A stretch of DNA of 20,879 nt, taken from IMG/VR virus record IMGVR_UViG_3300036832_000737, positions 1-20,879 of that record. One strand, 5' to 3'. This document shows positions 2,990 to 11,221 of the stretch, one piece after another (position 1 is the first letter of the stretch; each line of letters begins with the position of its first letter). A program made the position numbers and the translations under genes. The stretch comes from a virus. The notes beneath the pieces are model-generated. The model was given only the letters and a program-made list of their open reading frames with translations, ran no database searches and was not told where the DNA came from.

Positions 2990-3018
2990 TCAATAGCAGA
3001 TGTCTCGAGACCAGTCAA
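2990..3018 (-). promoter_or_regulatory. Leftward promoter P2 (DUF2786 unit)
   Basis: Minus strand: TTTCATTGACT gives -35 TTGACT, 17 bases containing GAGACATC, and -10 TATTGA, preceded by an A-rich tract. It lies in the short gap between the 3042-3707 gene and the DUF2786 gene, about 45 bases ahead of the latter's ATG. Confidence 0.65.
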
Positions 3019-3041
3019 TGAAATCTCTAGAAGTTTTTTTC

Positions 3042-7266: not shown

Positions 7267-7292
7267 TTGAGGTCTCCGTTGTTGTCGCTCAA

Positions 7293-7321
7293 TATCTAAA
7301 GATGTGGATGGCGAAAGTCAA
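7293..7321 (-). promoter_or_regulatory. Leftward promoter P3 (unit from 7266)
   Basis: Minus strand: GACATCATTGACT (-35 TTGACT), 17 bases ending CACATCTT, -10 TAGATA, then TTGAGCGACAAC and GGAGA. An A-rich tract precedes it (UP-element-like). Confidence 0.75.
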
Positions 7322-7350
7322 TGATGTCTCGACTGGTTTTTCATTTTTTC

Positions 7351-7879: not shown

Positions 7880-7905
7880 TTGAGTTCTCCGTTGTTGATG
7901 CTCAA

Positions 7906-7934
7906 AATATAAGATGATGCCAGTGAAACGTCAA
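7906..7934 (-). promoter_or_regulatory. Leftward promoter P4 (unit from 7879)
   Basis: Minus strand: CCATCATTGACG (-35 TTGACG), 17 bases, -10 TATATT, then a leader with GGAGAA. It begins directly after the terminator at 7948-7967, so one unit stops and the next starts within 60 bases. Confidence 0.78.
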
Positions 7935-7947
7935 TGATGGTTTCAAA

Positions 7948-8241: not shown

Positions 8242-8272
8242 TTTTAAGTCTCCATCTGTTGTCGTCGATGAA

Positions 8273-8301
8273 GATATAGAGATGTCACTGGTCTTTGTCA
8301 A
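8273..8301 (-). promoter_or_regulatory. Leftward promoter P5 (8241 gene)
   Basis: Minus strand: GACATCATTGACA (-35 TTGACA), 17 bases ending GTGACATCTC, -10 TATATC. It matches the promoters at 9729 and 10589 nearly base for base, with an A-rich stretch upstream. Confidence 0.82.
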
Positions 8302-8320
8302 TGATGTCTTGTGGTTTTTC

Positions 8321-8494
8321 TCACTTTTCTTTTGTGACTTGCGCCGCGTGTATTTTACGCTCAACTTCTTTGACCGAGTCCAGGATTAGGGCATTGAAGA
8401 TGTAGGAGGCATCCTCGAGGCGACCCGAGATGAGGGCGGCAACCAACTGGGCCGCCCCGTCGCGCAGGTCCTCAGCGGCTTCGCGCAAGGTCAT
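8321..8494 (-). CDS. Small helical hypothetical protein, 57 residues
   Basis: A short ORF reading MTLREAAEDLRDGAAQLVAALI, then SGRLEDASYIFNALILDSVKEVERKIHAAQVTKEK. It is almost wholly amphipathic helix, in three segments. Its ATG overlaps the TGA of the preceding gene (ATGA), which together with the sensible composition supports it as real. No function known. It ends 20 bases before the -35 of the promoter at 8273-8301. Confidence 0.65.
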   Translation of the reverse strand: MTLREAAEDLRDGAAQLVAALISGRLEDASYIFNALILDSVKEVERKIHAAQVTKEK

Positions 8495-8703
8495 TCGAAG
8501 TCCTCGGCTTCTGGCTCATAGTCATCCTCGGCTATGACGACGGTCTTGTCCTCATAGATGAGCACCTGGAGGTGGTCGCTGATGGCGTCGATCGCCGGGT
8601 CTTCTTTGCTCCGGGTCATGTAGGTGTCGGCGGCAGCGTCGATGCTTTTCGCCTCGATGCTTTCGCTGATGACGCCGACGGCCGTGTAAACGTTGAACTT
8701 CAT
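8491..8703 (-). CDS. Small acidic hypothetical protein, 70 residues
   Basis: A soluble protein with MKFNVYTAVGVISESIEAKSIDAAADTY, then AISDHLQVLIYEDKTVVIAEDD and an acidic tail. The strand-helix-strand-strand character suggests a compact alpha/beta fold; family not recognised. GGGAGAAA lies 8 bases before the ATG. Structured element R1 (8719-8772) ends just upstream of this ribosome binding site, so translation of this gene is a candidate target of that element. It overlaps the next gene by 4 bases. Confidence 0.75.
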   Translation of the reverse strand: MKFNVYTAVGVISESIEAKSIDAAADTYMTRSKEDPAIDAISDHLQVLIYEDKTVVIAEDDYEPEAEDFE

Positions 8704-8718
8704 TCTATTTCTCCCATA

Positions 8719-8772
8719 TCGGCTTGATCGCCGGTCACGCCCAACCGTGAGGATGGGCGTGGGCTTCGATCA
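8719..8772 (-). repeat. Structured intergenic element R1
   Basis: Minus-strand order: TGATCG, AAGCC, arm CACGCCCA, loop of 10, arm TGGGCGTG, ACCGG, CGATCA, then AGCCGA. The outer 6-bp and inner 8-bp stems pair perfectly. The first three bases are the TGA stop of the 8770-8928 gene; the ATG of the 8491-8703 gene follows the CGATCA arm by 21 bases. One of four copies. Confidence 0.85.
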
Positions 8773-8928
8773 GGCGAGTTCGGCTTTTGCCGTCGCCTTC
8801 AGGCGCTCGTGGGCCGCTAATCGCTTCTTGTACCGTCGATGAGCAGCAGCGACTTTAGCCTTGCTGCTCAATACCTCATTGGCACGCTTGCCCCACTTCT
8901 TCACGTTCGCCTTGTGGTCATTCGCCAT
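8770..8928 (-). CDS. Small basic hypothetical protein, 52 residues
   Basis: A Lys/Ala/Arg-rich protein, MANDHKANVKKWGKRANEVLSS then KAKVAAAHRRYKKRLAAHERLK, probably one or two helices with strong positive charge; nucleic-acid binding is plausible but unproven. GGAAAAGG lies ahead of the ATG. Element R2 ends 27 bases before its start and element R1 begins exactly at its stop codon, so it is flanked on both sides by the repeated structure. No family recognised. Confidence 0.68.
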   Translation of the reverse strand: MANDHKANVKKWGKRANEVLSSKAKVAAAHRRYKKRLAAHERLKATAKAELA

Positions 8929-8949
8929 TTACACTTTTCCTTTTCCAGT

Positions 8950-9002
8950 TCGGCATGATCGCCGATCATATCCAACGGGGTGATGGATATGGGCTTCGAT
9001 CA
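8950..9002 (-). repeat. Structured intergenic element R2
   Basis: Minus-strand order: TGATCG, AAGCC, arm CATATCCA, loop of 9, arm TGGATATG, ATCGG, CGATCA, then TGCCGA. The inner stem differs from R1 at three base pairs, each change compensated. The TGA is the stop of the 28-residue ORF at 9000-9086; the downstream gene is 8770-8928. Confidence 0.85.
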
Positions 9003-9086
9003 CAGCATTGCAATCAAGTGTCCAATCAGGTACAAGAGATTTATGACTGCGCCGATAGCGTGGATTAAATTCAAGATGTCGGTCAC
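9000..9086 (-). CDS. 28-residue hydrophobic membrane peptide, GTG start
   Basis: A very short ORF, starting GTG and reading TDILNLIHAIGAVINLLYLI then GHLIAML. Almost the whole peptide is one hydrophobic helix of membrane-spanning length. The case for it is a near-ideal ribosome binding site (AAAGGAGAT, 5 bases before the GTG), its place just 12 bases after the previous stop, and a TGA that coincides with the start of element R2 as in the other three copies. Function unknown; single-helix phage peptides can be holin-like, inhibitory or accessory. Confidence 0.62.
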   Translation of the reverse strand: MTDILNLIHAIGAVINLLYLIGHLIAML

Positions 9087-9098
9087 GTTGATCTCCTT

Positions 9099-9263
9099 TC
9101 AGAAGAACATCCTATCGCCGAAGACCAGCGAGCCGCCGAGGGCGCCGAAGAAGACACCAACGCTAATCGCCATAGTGACCCCGATGACAATGCCCATGAA
9201 TGTGCCAATTGCATATTCCATGGGCGAGGGCGGGATCATGTCCCGTCGTTCACGCCTGCCCAT
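9099..9263 (-). CDS. Small membrane protein, 54 residues
   Basis: MGRRERRDMIPPSPMEYAIG, then TFMGIVIGVTMAISVGVFFGALGG, then SLVFGDRMFF. A basic N-terminus precedes a Gly-rich hydrophobic segment (about residues 18-48) that could span the membrane once or twice. AAGGAGAT lies 6-7 bases before the ATG, and the ATG shares a base with the previous stop (TGATG). Together with its neighbours at 9000, 9263 and 9778 it forms a cluster of tiny hydrophobic proteins. Function unknown. Confidence 0.68.
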   Translation of the reverse strand: MGRRERRDMIPPSPMEYAIGTFMGIVIGVTMAISVGVFFGALGGSLVFGDRMFF

Positions 9264-9427
9264 CAGAGATCTCCTTCCTGCAATGGCGGAATATCAATTG
9301 CAGCCATTGAGATTAATGGCGGGTCGGAGACGTGTGTGGGCGCGAGCGCCTGGTTGATGCCGAACGCGGCCAGAGCCAGGAATATTTTTGCCCAGTCGGG
9401 CAAAGGGGTGTGAGGGTGGCTGTGCAT
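9263..9427 (-). CDS. Small protein with one hydrophobic segment, 54 residues
   Basis: MHSHPHTPLPDWAKIFLALAAF is followed by GINQALAPTHVSDPP and an acidic end LQEGDL. His-rich start, one hydrophobic stretch (about residues 13-29) that may be a weak membrane anchor. The start at 9427 has GGAGAAAG about 4 bases ahead; an in-frame ATG upstream lies inside the tail of element R3 and is not used. It follows R3 and is coupled to the next gene by TGATG. No family recognised. Confidence 0.66.
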   Translation of the reverse strand: MHSHPHTPLPDWAKIFLALAAFGINQALAPTHVSDPPLISMAAIDIPPLQEGDL

Positions 9428-9441
9428 TTCTTTCTCCATTG

Positions 9442-9491
9442 TCAGCATGATTGCCGGTCATGCCCCCCGCGAGGGGCATGGGCTGCAATCA
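9442..9491 (-). repeat. Structured intergenic element R3
   Basis: Minus-strand order: TGATTG, CAGCC, arm CATGCCCC, loop of 6, arm GGGGCATG, ACCGG, CAATCA, then TGCTGA. The outer stem shows a compensated change (TGATTG/CAATCA against TGATCG/CGATCA). The TGA is the stop of the 9489-9701 gene; the ATG of the 9263-9427 gene follows the CAATCA arm by 20 bases. Confidence 0.85.
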
Positions 9492-9701
9492 ACTGACGGT
9501 CATGAAACCTTTGTTGGCGAAGAAGGTGACGTTGCCGCCGAGGAACTCTCGGTTGAGGCCGAGCGGGAAGATCGCCGTCCAGCGCCCGGCTCGGTTGCGA
9601 ACGATCACGTACTTGGTCTTCTCGCGAAGCATCGGGCCGAGCGCCTTGAGGAGGTTTGCTTCGGTGGCGTAGCTTTTGGCAGTGTCGATGTTGAGGTCCA
9701 T
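9489..9701 (-). CDS. Hypothetical protein, 70 residues
   Basis: MDLNIDTAKSYATEANLLKAL, then GPMLREKTKYVIVRNRAGRW, then TAIFPLGLNREFLGGNVTFFA and a short tail. A helix followed by beta strands with the VRNRAGRWTAIFPL pattern, which I associate with small uncharacterised phage proteins. GGAGAA sits about 8 bases before the ATG at 9701; a longer frame upstream starts at the promoter and is not credible. It is the first gene after the promoter at 9729-9757, and its stop codon starts element R3. Confidence 0.75.
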   Translation of the reverse strand: MDLNIDTAKSYATEANLLKALGPMLREKTKYVIVRNRAGRWTAIFPLGLNREFLGGNVTFFANKGFMTVS

Positions 9702-9728
9702 TTGAAGTTCTCCGTTGTCGATGGTCAT

Positions 9729-9757
9729 GATATAAAGATGTCACCCGAGTTCGTCAA
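9729..9757 (-). promoter_or_regulatory. Leftward promoter P6 (unit from 9701)
   Basis: Minus strand: GACATCATTGACG (-35 TTGACG), 17 bases ending GTGACATCTT, -10 TATATC, then a short leader with GGAGAA before the ATG. It starts 20 bases past the stop of the 9778-10029 gene, with no terminator between. Confidence 0.82.
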
Positions 9758-9777
9758 TGATGTCTCGAGGAAATCTT

Positions 9778-10029
9778 TCAGAAATACCCCACCAGGTGAA
9801 GGAGGGTGAGGGCGATGACACCGAAGATGGTGACTCGGACAATGATCCCGGTGTCTTCTTGCTTGCGGTTCCGAGCCTCGGTGACAACCGCTGCTGCAGG
9901 GTTGATGGCTCGGAGCAGGTCGCGTTGCTGGCGAGCTTGCTCGGCAGCGAGGCGGCGGGTGGCGCGGTTGCGACTCTTGACTGCTGCAAGCACCAAGACG
10001 ACTACAACAATGACAGGTATGATGAGCAT
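9778..10029 (-). CDS. Two-helix membrane protein, 83 residues
   Basis: An N-terminal hydrophobic helix (LIIPVIVVVVLVLAA, residues 2-16), a charged Arg/Gln-rich helical middle (about 18-58, RNRATRRLAAEQARQQRDLL) and a second hydrophobic helix (GIIVRVTIFGVIALTLLHLV, 61-80). It probably sits in the inner membrane as a hairpin with the charged loop in the cytoplasm. The size and topology allow a holin-like role, but no lysis gene is visible nearby, so I leave it unassigned. GGAGAAAAG lies about 5 bases before the ATG, just after element R4. Confidence 0.72.
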   Translation of the reverse strand: MLIIPVIVVVVLVLAAVKSRNRATRRLAAEQARQQRDLLRAINPAAAVVTEARNRKQEDTGIIVRVTIFGVIALTLLHLVGYF

Positions 10030-10049
10030 TTCTTTTCTCCGGGGTTGTC

Positions 10050-10106
10050 GGCTTTTGGTCGCCGTTCCTGCTCCACGCGGCGGGCGAGGAGCAGGGGCTG
10101 CGATCA
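10050..10106 (-). repeat. Structured intergenic element R4
   Basis: Minus-strand order: TGATCG, CAGCC, arm CCTGCTCC, loop of 13, arm GGAGCAGG, AACGG, CGACCA, then AAGCCGA. The inner stem pairs perfectly; the outer stem has one A-C mismatch. The TGA is the stop of the 10104-10538 gene; the ATG of the 9778-10029 gene follows the outer arm by 26 bases. Confidence 0.82.
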
Positions 10107-10538
10107 GTCCTCCTTTTTGTCGAGGGCCTTGATGTCGGCCATCGAATAGGGAGCCTCGAAGCCAGCGCGGCGGAGCTTGGCCCGCATCACCTTGGGGTTG
10201 AGGCCGTGCTTGGCGAAGTATTCGCCGACTTCCGGATCCGACTGGTTCTTGCGAACCGCCTTTTCCTTCTTGGCCTTGGGCGCCTTCGCCTTCACGACCC
10301 TGGCCGGCTTGGTCGGCTTGTCAGCGACCGTGTCATCGGCCTTGACCTTGGTGTGGTCAAGGACGGTGTCGCGGTCAGCGACGACGGGGGTCTTGGGCAG
10401 CGCCTTGATCTTGGCGATGAGGGCGTCCTTGGAGGCCTTCCAGACGGTGATCTGGGCGACTGTGGGGTGGCTCTTGACTACGAGGGCGTTGAAGTGCTTG
10501 ACCAAATCCTTGGTCGAAAGGGTGTTGAGGTTGTCCAT
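10104..10538 (-). CDS. Lys-rich hypothetical protein, 144 residues
   Basis: Three parts: an N-terminal helical region (MDNLNTLSTKDLVKHFNALV ... VWKASKDALIAKIKAL, about 1-47), a Lys/Ala/Pro-rich linker (about 60-95) like a histone tail, and a C-terminal helical unit EYFAKHGLNPKVMRAKLRRAG then FEAPYSMADIKAL (about 105-140), which looks like a small DNA-binding helix-turn-helix. A DNA-binding or nucleoid-like role is likely but inferred. It is the first leftward gene, with GGAG about 9 bases before the ATG, driven by the promoter at 10589-10617. Its stop codon begins element R4. Confidence 0.78.
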   Translation of the reverse strand: MDNLNTLSTKDLVKHFNALVVKSHPTVAQITVWKASKDALIAKIKALPKTPVVADRDTVLDHTKVKADDTVADKPTKPARVVKAKAPKAKKEKAVRKNQSDPEVGEYFAKHGLNPKVMRAKLRRAGFEAPYSMADIKALDKKED

Positions 10539-10588
10539 TTGTTTAACTCCAGGTTGGTGATGTCGGTCAGTCCGTCATCCATGCCCAT

Positions 10589-10617
10589 GATATAAAGACG
10601 TCACTGGGTCGTGTCAA
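10589..10617 (-). promoter_or_regulatory. Leftward promoter P7 (first leftward gene)
   Basis: Minus strand: GACATCATTGACA (-35 TTGACA), 17 bases ending GTGACGTCTT, -10 TATATC, with an A/T-rich tract upstream. The leader to the ATG is about 45 bases, longer than for most other family members. It faces away from the late operon. Confidence 0.82.
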
Positions 10618-10678
10618 TGATGTCTGGGAAGAATTTCTAAAAAATCTTTTGGGGGCCCAAAAAACCTCGACCAGTTGA

Positions 10679-10726: not shown

Positions 10727-11221
10727 ATGTGGGTAGTAGTGCGAGCGAAGCCAGGGCAGATCCAAATGGCTCTGCGTCACCTGGAGCGGCAGGACTTTGA
10801 GTATTATGCGCCCAAGCTCAGGGTCACTCTGGTCCGACGCCACAAGGTCGTGGAGGTCGAGCGGTTCCTGTTTATGAACTATGTGTTTGTGGAGGTCGAC
10901 AGCCGGTGGATGGCCCTGCGCAATACTTATGGGATCGGCTCGGTGCTGATGTTTGGGGACGGACCCGAGGAGGTAGACCCCCGGGTTATCAGGAACTTGC
11001 GCGAGCTGGAGGGGCCGGATGGGTTCTTCAGGTCTAGCGAGTCGCCGGGGAGATTCCAGCCGGGTCAGACACTAAAAGTGATCGGGGGGTTGCTGGAAGG
11101 CCAGTTTTGTGAGTTTATACAGTTCCTCGGCGCTAACCGCGCTCGAGTTATGATGTTTCGGTCTCGACTTGTTGTGATGTCTTTGACAAACTTAGCCGCC
11201 ATCGCTGCCAGGGGCGGGTAA
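10727..11221 (+). CDS. NusG/RfaH-like transcription antitermination protein
   Basis: A 164-residue protein expected to bind RNA polymerase and promote processive transcription. The NGN domain spans about residues 1-105: MWVVVRAKPGQIQMALRHLE, YYAPKLRVTLVRRHKVVEVER, FLFMNYVFVEVD and a GIGSVLMFGDGP loop. The C-terminal part (about 120-150) has the KOW pattern F-Q-P-G-Q-x-L-K-V-I-G-G-L-L-E-G-Q. GGGAGGT lies 4 bases before the ATG at 10727; an in-frame ATG at 10694 lies inside the upstream hairpin and lacks a ribosome binding site. As first gene of the virion operon it fits a role in reading through the long late transcript (inference). Confidence 0.86.
   Translation: MWVVVRAKPGQIQMALRHLERQDFEYYAPKLRVTLVRRHKVVEVERFLFMNYVFVEVDSRWMALRNTYGIGSVLMFGDGPEEVDPRVIRNLRELEGPDGFFRSSESPGRFQPGQTLKVIGGLLEGQFCEFIQFLGANRARVMMFRSRLVVMSLTNLAAIAARGG

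Follow-up and report, generated by a model that had tools for sequence, protein, structure and literature searches.

Integron attC sites are hairpins with a variable tip that lie directly after a stop codon, in a serial gene-site-gene order. In phage T7, the site R1.1 lies between genes 1.0 and 1.1; it has a length of 60 nt and an internal loop of 4/5 nt, and can be cut by an alphaproteobacterial RNase III (PMC6121014). Mycobacteriophages of cluster K carry many copies per phage of the SAS, a fixed 13-bp sequence (GGGATAGGAGCCC) at the ribosome-binding site, just upstream of the starts of genes that are non-structural. An inverted repeat with a variable spacer (ESAS) accompanies about half of them, and for these repeats the authors found little support for RNA pairing (PMC3203893).

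Here we compare with these systems a family of cis-acting RNA elements that lie between the genes of phage operons. The family was first seen in a virus record of 20.9 kb, the whole of which is referred to as the window. The initial annotation had described four elements on its minus strand, and all of them are present in the sequence, within two runs of short genes:

8719 to 8772, minus strand: R1, two-stem hairpin TGATCG-AAGCC-CACGCCCA(loop)TGGGCGTG-ACCGG-CGATCA-A-GCCGA; covariance model 59.5 bits, fold z = -4.0
8950 to 9002, minus strand: R2, TGATCG-AAGCC-CATATCCA(loop)TGGATATG-ATCGG-CGATCA-T-GCCGA; covariance model 60.2 bits, fold z = -2.7
9442 to 9491, minus strand: R3, TGATTG-CAGCC-CATGCCCC(loop)GGGGCATG-ACCGG-CAATCA-T-GCTGA; covariance model 69.7 bits, fold z = -4.7
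10048 to 10106, minus strand: R4, TGATCG-CAGCC-CCTGCTCC(loop)GGAGCAGG-AACGG-CGACCA-AAA-GCCGA; covariance model 51.6 bits, fold z = -3.1

The shared pattern that had been proposed, TGATYG-MAGCC-8 bp-ANCGG-CRATCA-N-GCYGA, is exact in R1–R3, but R4 has CGACCA and a longer spacer, and its GCCGA ends at 10048, two bases beyond the boundary first given. The CGACCA of R4 corresponds to the single A-C mismatch already reported for its outer stem. Compensated variation at six of the eight inner pairs and at one outer pair, as claimed, can be followed by eye among R1–R4. The internal loop bases, described as fixed, are nearly invariant across the wider family, while the TC said to begin every loop is found in all four window elements but is not kept in the wider family. 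The predicted fold of R1–R3 is the proposed one; the minimum free energy structure of R4 favours an alternative hairpin, in which the conserved CGGC pairs with the downstream GCCG. Among 200 dinucleotide shuffles of each of the R1, R2, R3 and R4 regions, 0, 1, 0 and 1, respectively, folded as well as the native sequence.

In all four elements the first triplet is the TGA stop of the upstream ORF, in agreement with the initial annotation, and these ORFs end at 8770, 9000, 9489 and 10104. The features around the elements are as follows:

8491 to 8703, minus strand: 70-aa ORF 3' of R1
8701 to 8715, minus strand: Shine-Dalgarno (GGGAG) and ATG, read from the sequence, for the gene past R1
8770 to 8928, minus strand: 52-aa ORF, with its ATG after R2 and its stop, TGA (8770-8772), as the opening triplet of R1
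9000 to 9086, minus strand: 28-aa hydrophobic ORF with a GTG start and AAGGAG ahead, whose TGA is the first triplet of R2
9263 to 9427, minus strand: 54-aa ORF 3' of R3, its ATG behind GGAG
9489 to 9728, minus strand: 79-aa ORF; R3 opens with its TGA
9778 to 10029, minus strand: 83-aa ORF 3' of R4
10104 to 10538, minus strand: 144-aa ORF; R4 opens with its TGA
10571-10645, 9711-9785, 8255-8329, 7883-7939, 7275-7349 and 3013-3038, minus strand: promoter-like repeats

We infer that the genes flanking the elements are co-transcribed in a polycistronic message. The promoter-like repeat, present in five or six minus-strand copies (for example TTGACG-17-TATATT), marks the beginnings of the short-gene runs and not R1–R4, and its copies are probably the phage's own early promoters. 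The 28-residue ORF at 9000-9086 on the minus strand (MTDILNLIHAIGAVINLLYLIGHLIAML) has a good Shine-Dalgarno sequence ahead of its GTG and, judged by its sequence, likely encodes a real single-pass membrane peptide; the element also marks short genes of this kind, which gene finders drop. The window's phage also encodes a NusG/RfaH-like protein at 10727-11218 on the plus strand (phrog_6386; PF02357), divergent from the element-bearing operons. Such a protein is also found in G009, G026 and G031, of which G009 and G026 are rich in elements.

We then searched for the element elsewhere with a strict finder, which asks for the motifs of the internal loop together with 9 or more pairs in the inner stem and leaves the outer stem unused in selection. 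As a result, we obtained at least 111 distinct high-confidence copies in at least 73 viral loci from a partial sampling of viral contigs, while three scrambled motifs of similar composition gave 2-3 matches each in the same DNA. Two later scans enlarged the copy set, and the counts given here hold among the matches listed. A pattern with the outer stem fixed matched 91 viral stretches, with a clear variable stem in about half of them, and a pattern with the outer stem left free recovered about 30 further viral stretches carrying other outer stems. In a whole-record covariance-model search at E <= 0.001, 13 copies were counted in each of G010 and G026, 10 in G005 and 6 in G009, including a few reverse-strand matches to the same hairpin. 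Among uncultured phages the element is widespread, and as a structured RNA it is apparently uncatalogued.

The family can be described, from 5' to 3', as a stop codon at or just before P1, the 5' half of P1, C or A followed by AGCC, P2, ANCGGC, the 3' half of P1 and GCCGA. P1, the outer stem, has 5-7 bp. The inner stem P2 is variable, with 8-12 bp and mostly 10-11 pairs, and its first four pairs lean to CAUG:CAUG yet covary. The internal loop is fixed, with C/A-AGCC facing ANCGG, and the two bases ahead of CGG are nearly always AA, AT, AC, TA or CA. A GCC or GCYG flank is retained in 96-101 of the 111 listed copies (GCYG downstream in 96), and the spacing from CGGC to GCCG is usually 6 nt. Two structural features of the family are among those that had escaped the initial annotation. 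The outer stem also changes freely from phage to phage, and where the ATG is distant (39 of 102 copies) an extra hairpin of variable sequence lies in between in 38 of the 39, which places a further hairpin ahead of the Shine-Dalgarno sequence in about 38% of copies. The leader of the remaining 63 copies is almost always unstructured. This second hairpin keeps a constant placement between GCCGA and the leader in L051, L103, L107, L117, L128, L131, L138, L145 and others.

The initial annotation had taken the element for a conserved RNA structure and not for drifting DNA repeats, and covariation, a sense-strand preference for G-U and retention at orthologous genes all speak for this reading. Its suggested roles were protein binding, processing and translation coupling. 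Over raw sequences, without correction for relatedness, 97.4% of pair cells are paired in a set of 47, with double-sided changes at 14 of 18 pairs, and 95.7% in a set of 103, with double-sided changes at 15 of 18 pairs and 365 double-change cells against 94 in shuffles. The pairing of the 47 sequences was reached by 0 of 500 shuffles, and no slid register approaches it. Since the inner stem served in selection, pairing is more cleanly tested on the outer stem; its positions 1-5, on the same uncorrected basis, are paired in 98, 94, 84, 91 and 71% of sequences, versus 81, 87, 63, 77 and 42% expected from composition. For the variation of P1 the scan with a free outer stem is the better witness, since most loci were fetched by patterns that fix part of P1.

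Moreover, the inner stems contain 19 G-U against 5 A-C oppositions (p = 0.007, with G-T and A-C treated alike in selection), so the element acts as RNA of the gene sense strand; such an asymmetry is expected of a sense-strand RNA and not of a DNA cruciform. In the outer stem the counts, 27 A-C and 17 G-U, do not differ significantly (p = 0.17). Drift of the stems without compensation in homologous phages, which had been named as an outcome that would speak against the proposal, did not occur. At orthologous genes of different phages, with 33-52% protein identity, the element is kept while both stems are rewritten; the outer stems ahead of the same 259-aa protein, for example, are TGATCG:CGATCC, GATGTG:CATATC and AGCTTG:CAGGCT. 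Other homologous genes have no element, and hence the element is also gained and lost.

As to the place of the element among the genes, 94 of the 111 listed copies have an upstream ORF of at least 25 codons whose stop is no more than about 9 nt away from the 5' end, mostly exactly there, and only once among the 111 does the upstream stop lie further inside the element. Hits unlinked to stop codons, a further outcome named as speaking against the proposal, are therefore not what the family shows, although the other 17 copies have no nearby stop of such an ORF, a point that the initial annotation had missed. Likewise, a TGA exactly at the first position is the commonest arrangement but not the rule. 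Copies that start with TGA use it as the in-frame stop in 48 of 59 cases, versus one-third expected; other stops are TAG or TGA one base earlier and TAA or TGA four bases earlier, with offsets from -1 to -9. Since the codon varies, it is the position and not the codon that is conserved, and a simple reason would be enough for the link, namely that translation must end ahead of the structure. On the downstream side, a Shine-Dalgarno sequence and an ATG follow in 102 of the 111 listed copies, and the start codon after the element is ATG in 97 of 99. As 17 copies have no close stop, the association with the downstream start is no weaker than that with the upstream stop. Selenocysteine-type read-through was rejected, as the listed contexts show stops that vary in frame and offset, and each element is followed by a new Shine-Dalgarno-ATG.

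The statement that no element of this form had been described agrees with our searches. Rfam release 15 (4227 models) gave no match at the gathering threshold in the window and seven carrier loci, and at E up to 5 only one weak match fell in the element region, at none of R1–R4. Text searches of the open literature, within the limits of the library searched, returned no description of the element. Like many Rfam families, it is a covarying cis RNA. It shares with SAS and ESAS the position just upstream of start codons, but pairing, strongly supported by covariation, is the conserved feature of the present element, and a 13-bp GGGATAGGAGCCC at the ribosome-binding site was not seen, the surroundings of the Shine-Dalgarno sequence differing between copies. 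Among hairpin RNAs that lie between phage cistrons we consider the element new: its loop is unusually strict, it abuts stop codons and it is spread very widely.

The nearest working analogue is found in the RNase III sites of phage T7. Both occur in several copies between the genes of one polycistronic message, both are irregular hairpins with an internal loop between a lower stem and an upper stem of roughly 10 bp, and in both the upper-stem sequence varies while pairing is kept. The regions at what we take to be the positions of the five T7 RNase III sites fold with upper stems of 9-13 bp with variable paired tips. The present element likewise has two stems and an internal loop over about two helical turns (outer stem 5-7 bp, inner mostly 10-11), and it is intercistronic as the T7-type sites are, with a stop upstream in 94 and a start downstream in 102 of the 111 listed copies. 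Unlike the T7 sites, it has a stop codon abutting the outer stem, a fixed loop sequence with a GCCGA flank, and up to 13 copies per record; we know of no counterpart of the conserved GCCGA in T7. In sequence the two are not homologous, the best score of an unfiltered cmsearch being 6.9 bits (E = 0.52).

The element is probably a site where a multi-gene message is cut or bound. Because the T7 sites are the nearest working analogue, we rank first, with a probability of roughly 0.4, an intercistronic hairpin for processing or insulation that is recognised by the host and works like them. By this analogy, a long irregular hairpin of about two helical turns, interrupted by a loop, would be recognised in the polycistronic message by a host factor, most simply RNase III, and cutting or binding would separate the cistrons. 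The upstream message would keep a stable 3' hairpin and the downstream gene would get a free leader, while the upstream gene would stop at the hairpin edge so that translating ribosomes leave the hairpin folded. The T7-like anatomy, with an inner stem that peaks at 10-11 bp, is consistent with such a role. The downstream genes belong to many families, including DUF932, ArdC-type anti-restriction proteins, AAA ATPase, helicases, a sigma factor and many unknown ones. No protein family is common to all 14 compared records, which are partial, and the commonest cluster occurs in 8 of them; a host factor is therefore the simplest reader. A NusG-like protein was rejected as a general partner, being present in only 4 of 30 records. 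Against processing, if a host factor suffices, the absence of the element from ten named phage records is unexplained; the GCCGA flank and the lack of sequence similarity to the T7 sites count against it too. If the processing reading is true, the use of one standard hairpin at stop codons to divide polycistronic messages would be common to many phages, and the fixed internal loop would point to a reader encoded by host or phage.

Also against processing, phages of great diversity keep the internal loop almost invariant, which is stricter than RNase III is known to need and hints at a sequence-specific binder. Such an RNA-binding protein, of host or phage, might control the downstream (or upstream) gene through its translation or stability, a reading we rank second and hold to be possible but doubtful. 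Its contacts would be the invariant loop AGCC/ANCGG and the GCCGA flank, with the stems merely presenting them, and this fits the free change of both stems around the loop, the retention of the flank in 96-101 of the 111 listed copies and the location directly ahead of Shine-Dalgarno leaders; the up to 13 copies per phage record could be co-regulated. No phage protein, however, is common to all compared carriers (partial records), the NusG-like one occurring in only 4 of 30 records. Nor do predictions point to simple blocking, since the Shine-Dalgarno sequence comes out equally open with or without the element. The same prediction bears on a two-state RNA gated by ribosomes, which we rank third and regard as rather unlikely. 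The initial annotation had overlooked that CGGC can alternatively pair with the downstream GCCGA. In the model, P1 and this CGGC:GCCG hairpin (P3) would be mutually exclusive, and a ribosome that ends translation at the stop codon within the 5' strand would block P1 and permit P3, so that translation of the upstream gene would set the state met by the next step, be it reinitiation, cleavage or binding. GCYG lies downstream in 96 of the 111 listed copies, usually 6 nt past CGGC, the mean predicted probability is 0.54 for P1 and 0.44 for P3, rising to 0.91 for P3 once the 5' strand is covered, and the in-frame use of the initial TGA (48 of 59) points the same way. On the other side, 17 of the 111 listed copies have no nearby stop, and because the predicted states do not differ in how open the Shine-Dalgarno sequence is, initiation is not expected to be affected directly. 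Both arms of P3 are nearly invariant and so offer no covariation. We think it unlikely that the element is an operon-wide repeated switch read by terminating ribosomes, in which the central CGGC swaps between the stop-containing P1 and the GCCGA hairpin; if it were, the ribosome at each upstream stop would set the processing or expression of the next gene.

Action in transcription, as a terminator or a nut/put-type anti-termination site, is very unlikely. Put anti-termination sites need no companion factor, and some carriers, the window's phage included, do encode a NusG/RfaH-like protein, but this gene was not found in 26 of 30 records. The stems are followed by A-rich unstructured leaders and not by a T run, no terminator-like calls were made at R1–R4 on the minus strand, and the copies lie between genes inside the runs, away from the promoter-like repeats. 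The lowest probability of all goes to an element acting as DNA, such as an attC-like cassette recombination site, a mobile repeat or an ESAS-like protein-binding inverted repeat. The hairpin with a variable tip at a gene's stop codon and the gene-site-gene series do recall attC, and in L015 and in L045/L091 two copies that are almost identical enclose a single gene or short segment. The present element differs from attC in its sense-strand RNA signature and in having no recombinase linked to its carriers: a tyrosine recombinase scored above the cut-off in only 4 of 29 records, and in neither G005 (10 copies) nor G026 (13). A DNA-level element is further disfavoured by the orientation, which follows the genes in 102 of the 111 listed copies, by the tolerance of G-U over A-C and by stems that differ, with compensation, between the copies within one phage.

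In the bacterial genomes and named phages that were scanned, no genuine copy was found. In 84,980 bacterial and archaeal species genomes the pattern gave 105 matches of the chance type, the longest stem having 6 pairs and none in an intergenic context, in a scan that fixed the TGATYG outer stem, whereas L102, L120, L145, L147 and L149, from IMG isolate-genome records, carry the GCGATT type. Two pattern samples of alphaproteobacterial genomes yielded just two matches, both by chance, and a covariance-model sample of 337 genomes, insensitive with 16 candidates scored per genome, yielded none. No element was seen in rhizobial plasmid DUF932 loci or in the ten named phages, whose records show relatedness in DNA polymerase, portal, AAA-ATPase or terminase; for these phages the search had no positive control, which makes its negative result weak. 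A short BLAST query against cultured phages gave no relevant match.

Near-identical element pairs flank one short gene or segment in L015 (9648-9985), in L045 (4243-4729) and in L091, which suggests duplication or exchange of gene-plus-element units. Furthermore, L102, L120, L145, L147, L149, L349, L358 and L369 are 'virus' records from IMG isolate genomes, of up to 132 kb, and in several of them a DUF932 gene and a conserved 34-aa ORF have an element of the GCGATT or GATTTG type around them.
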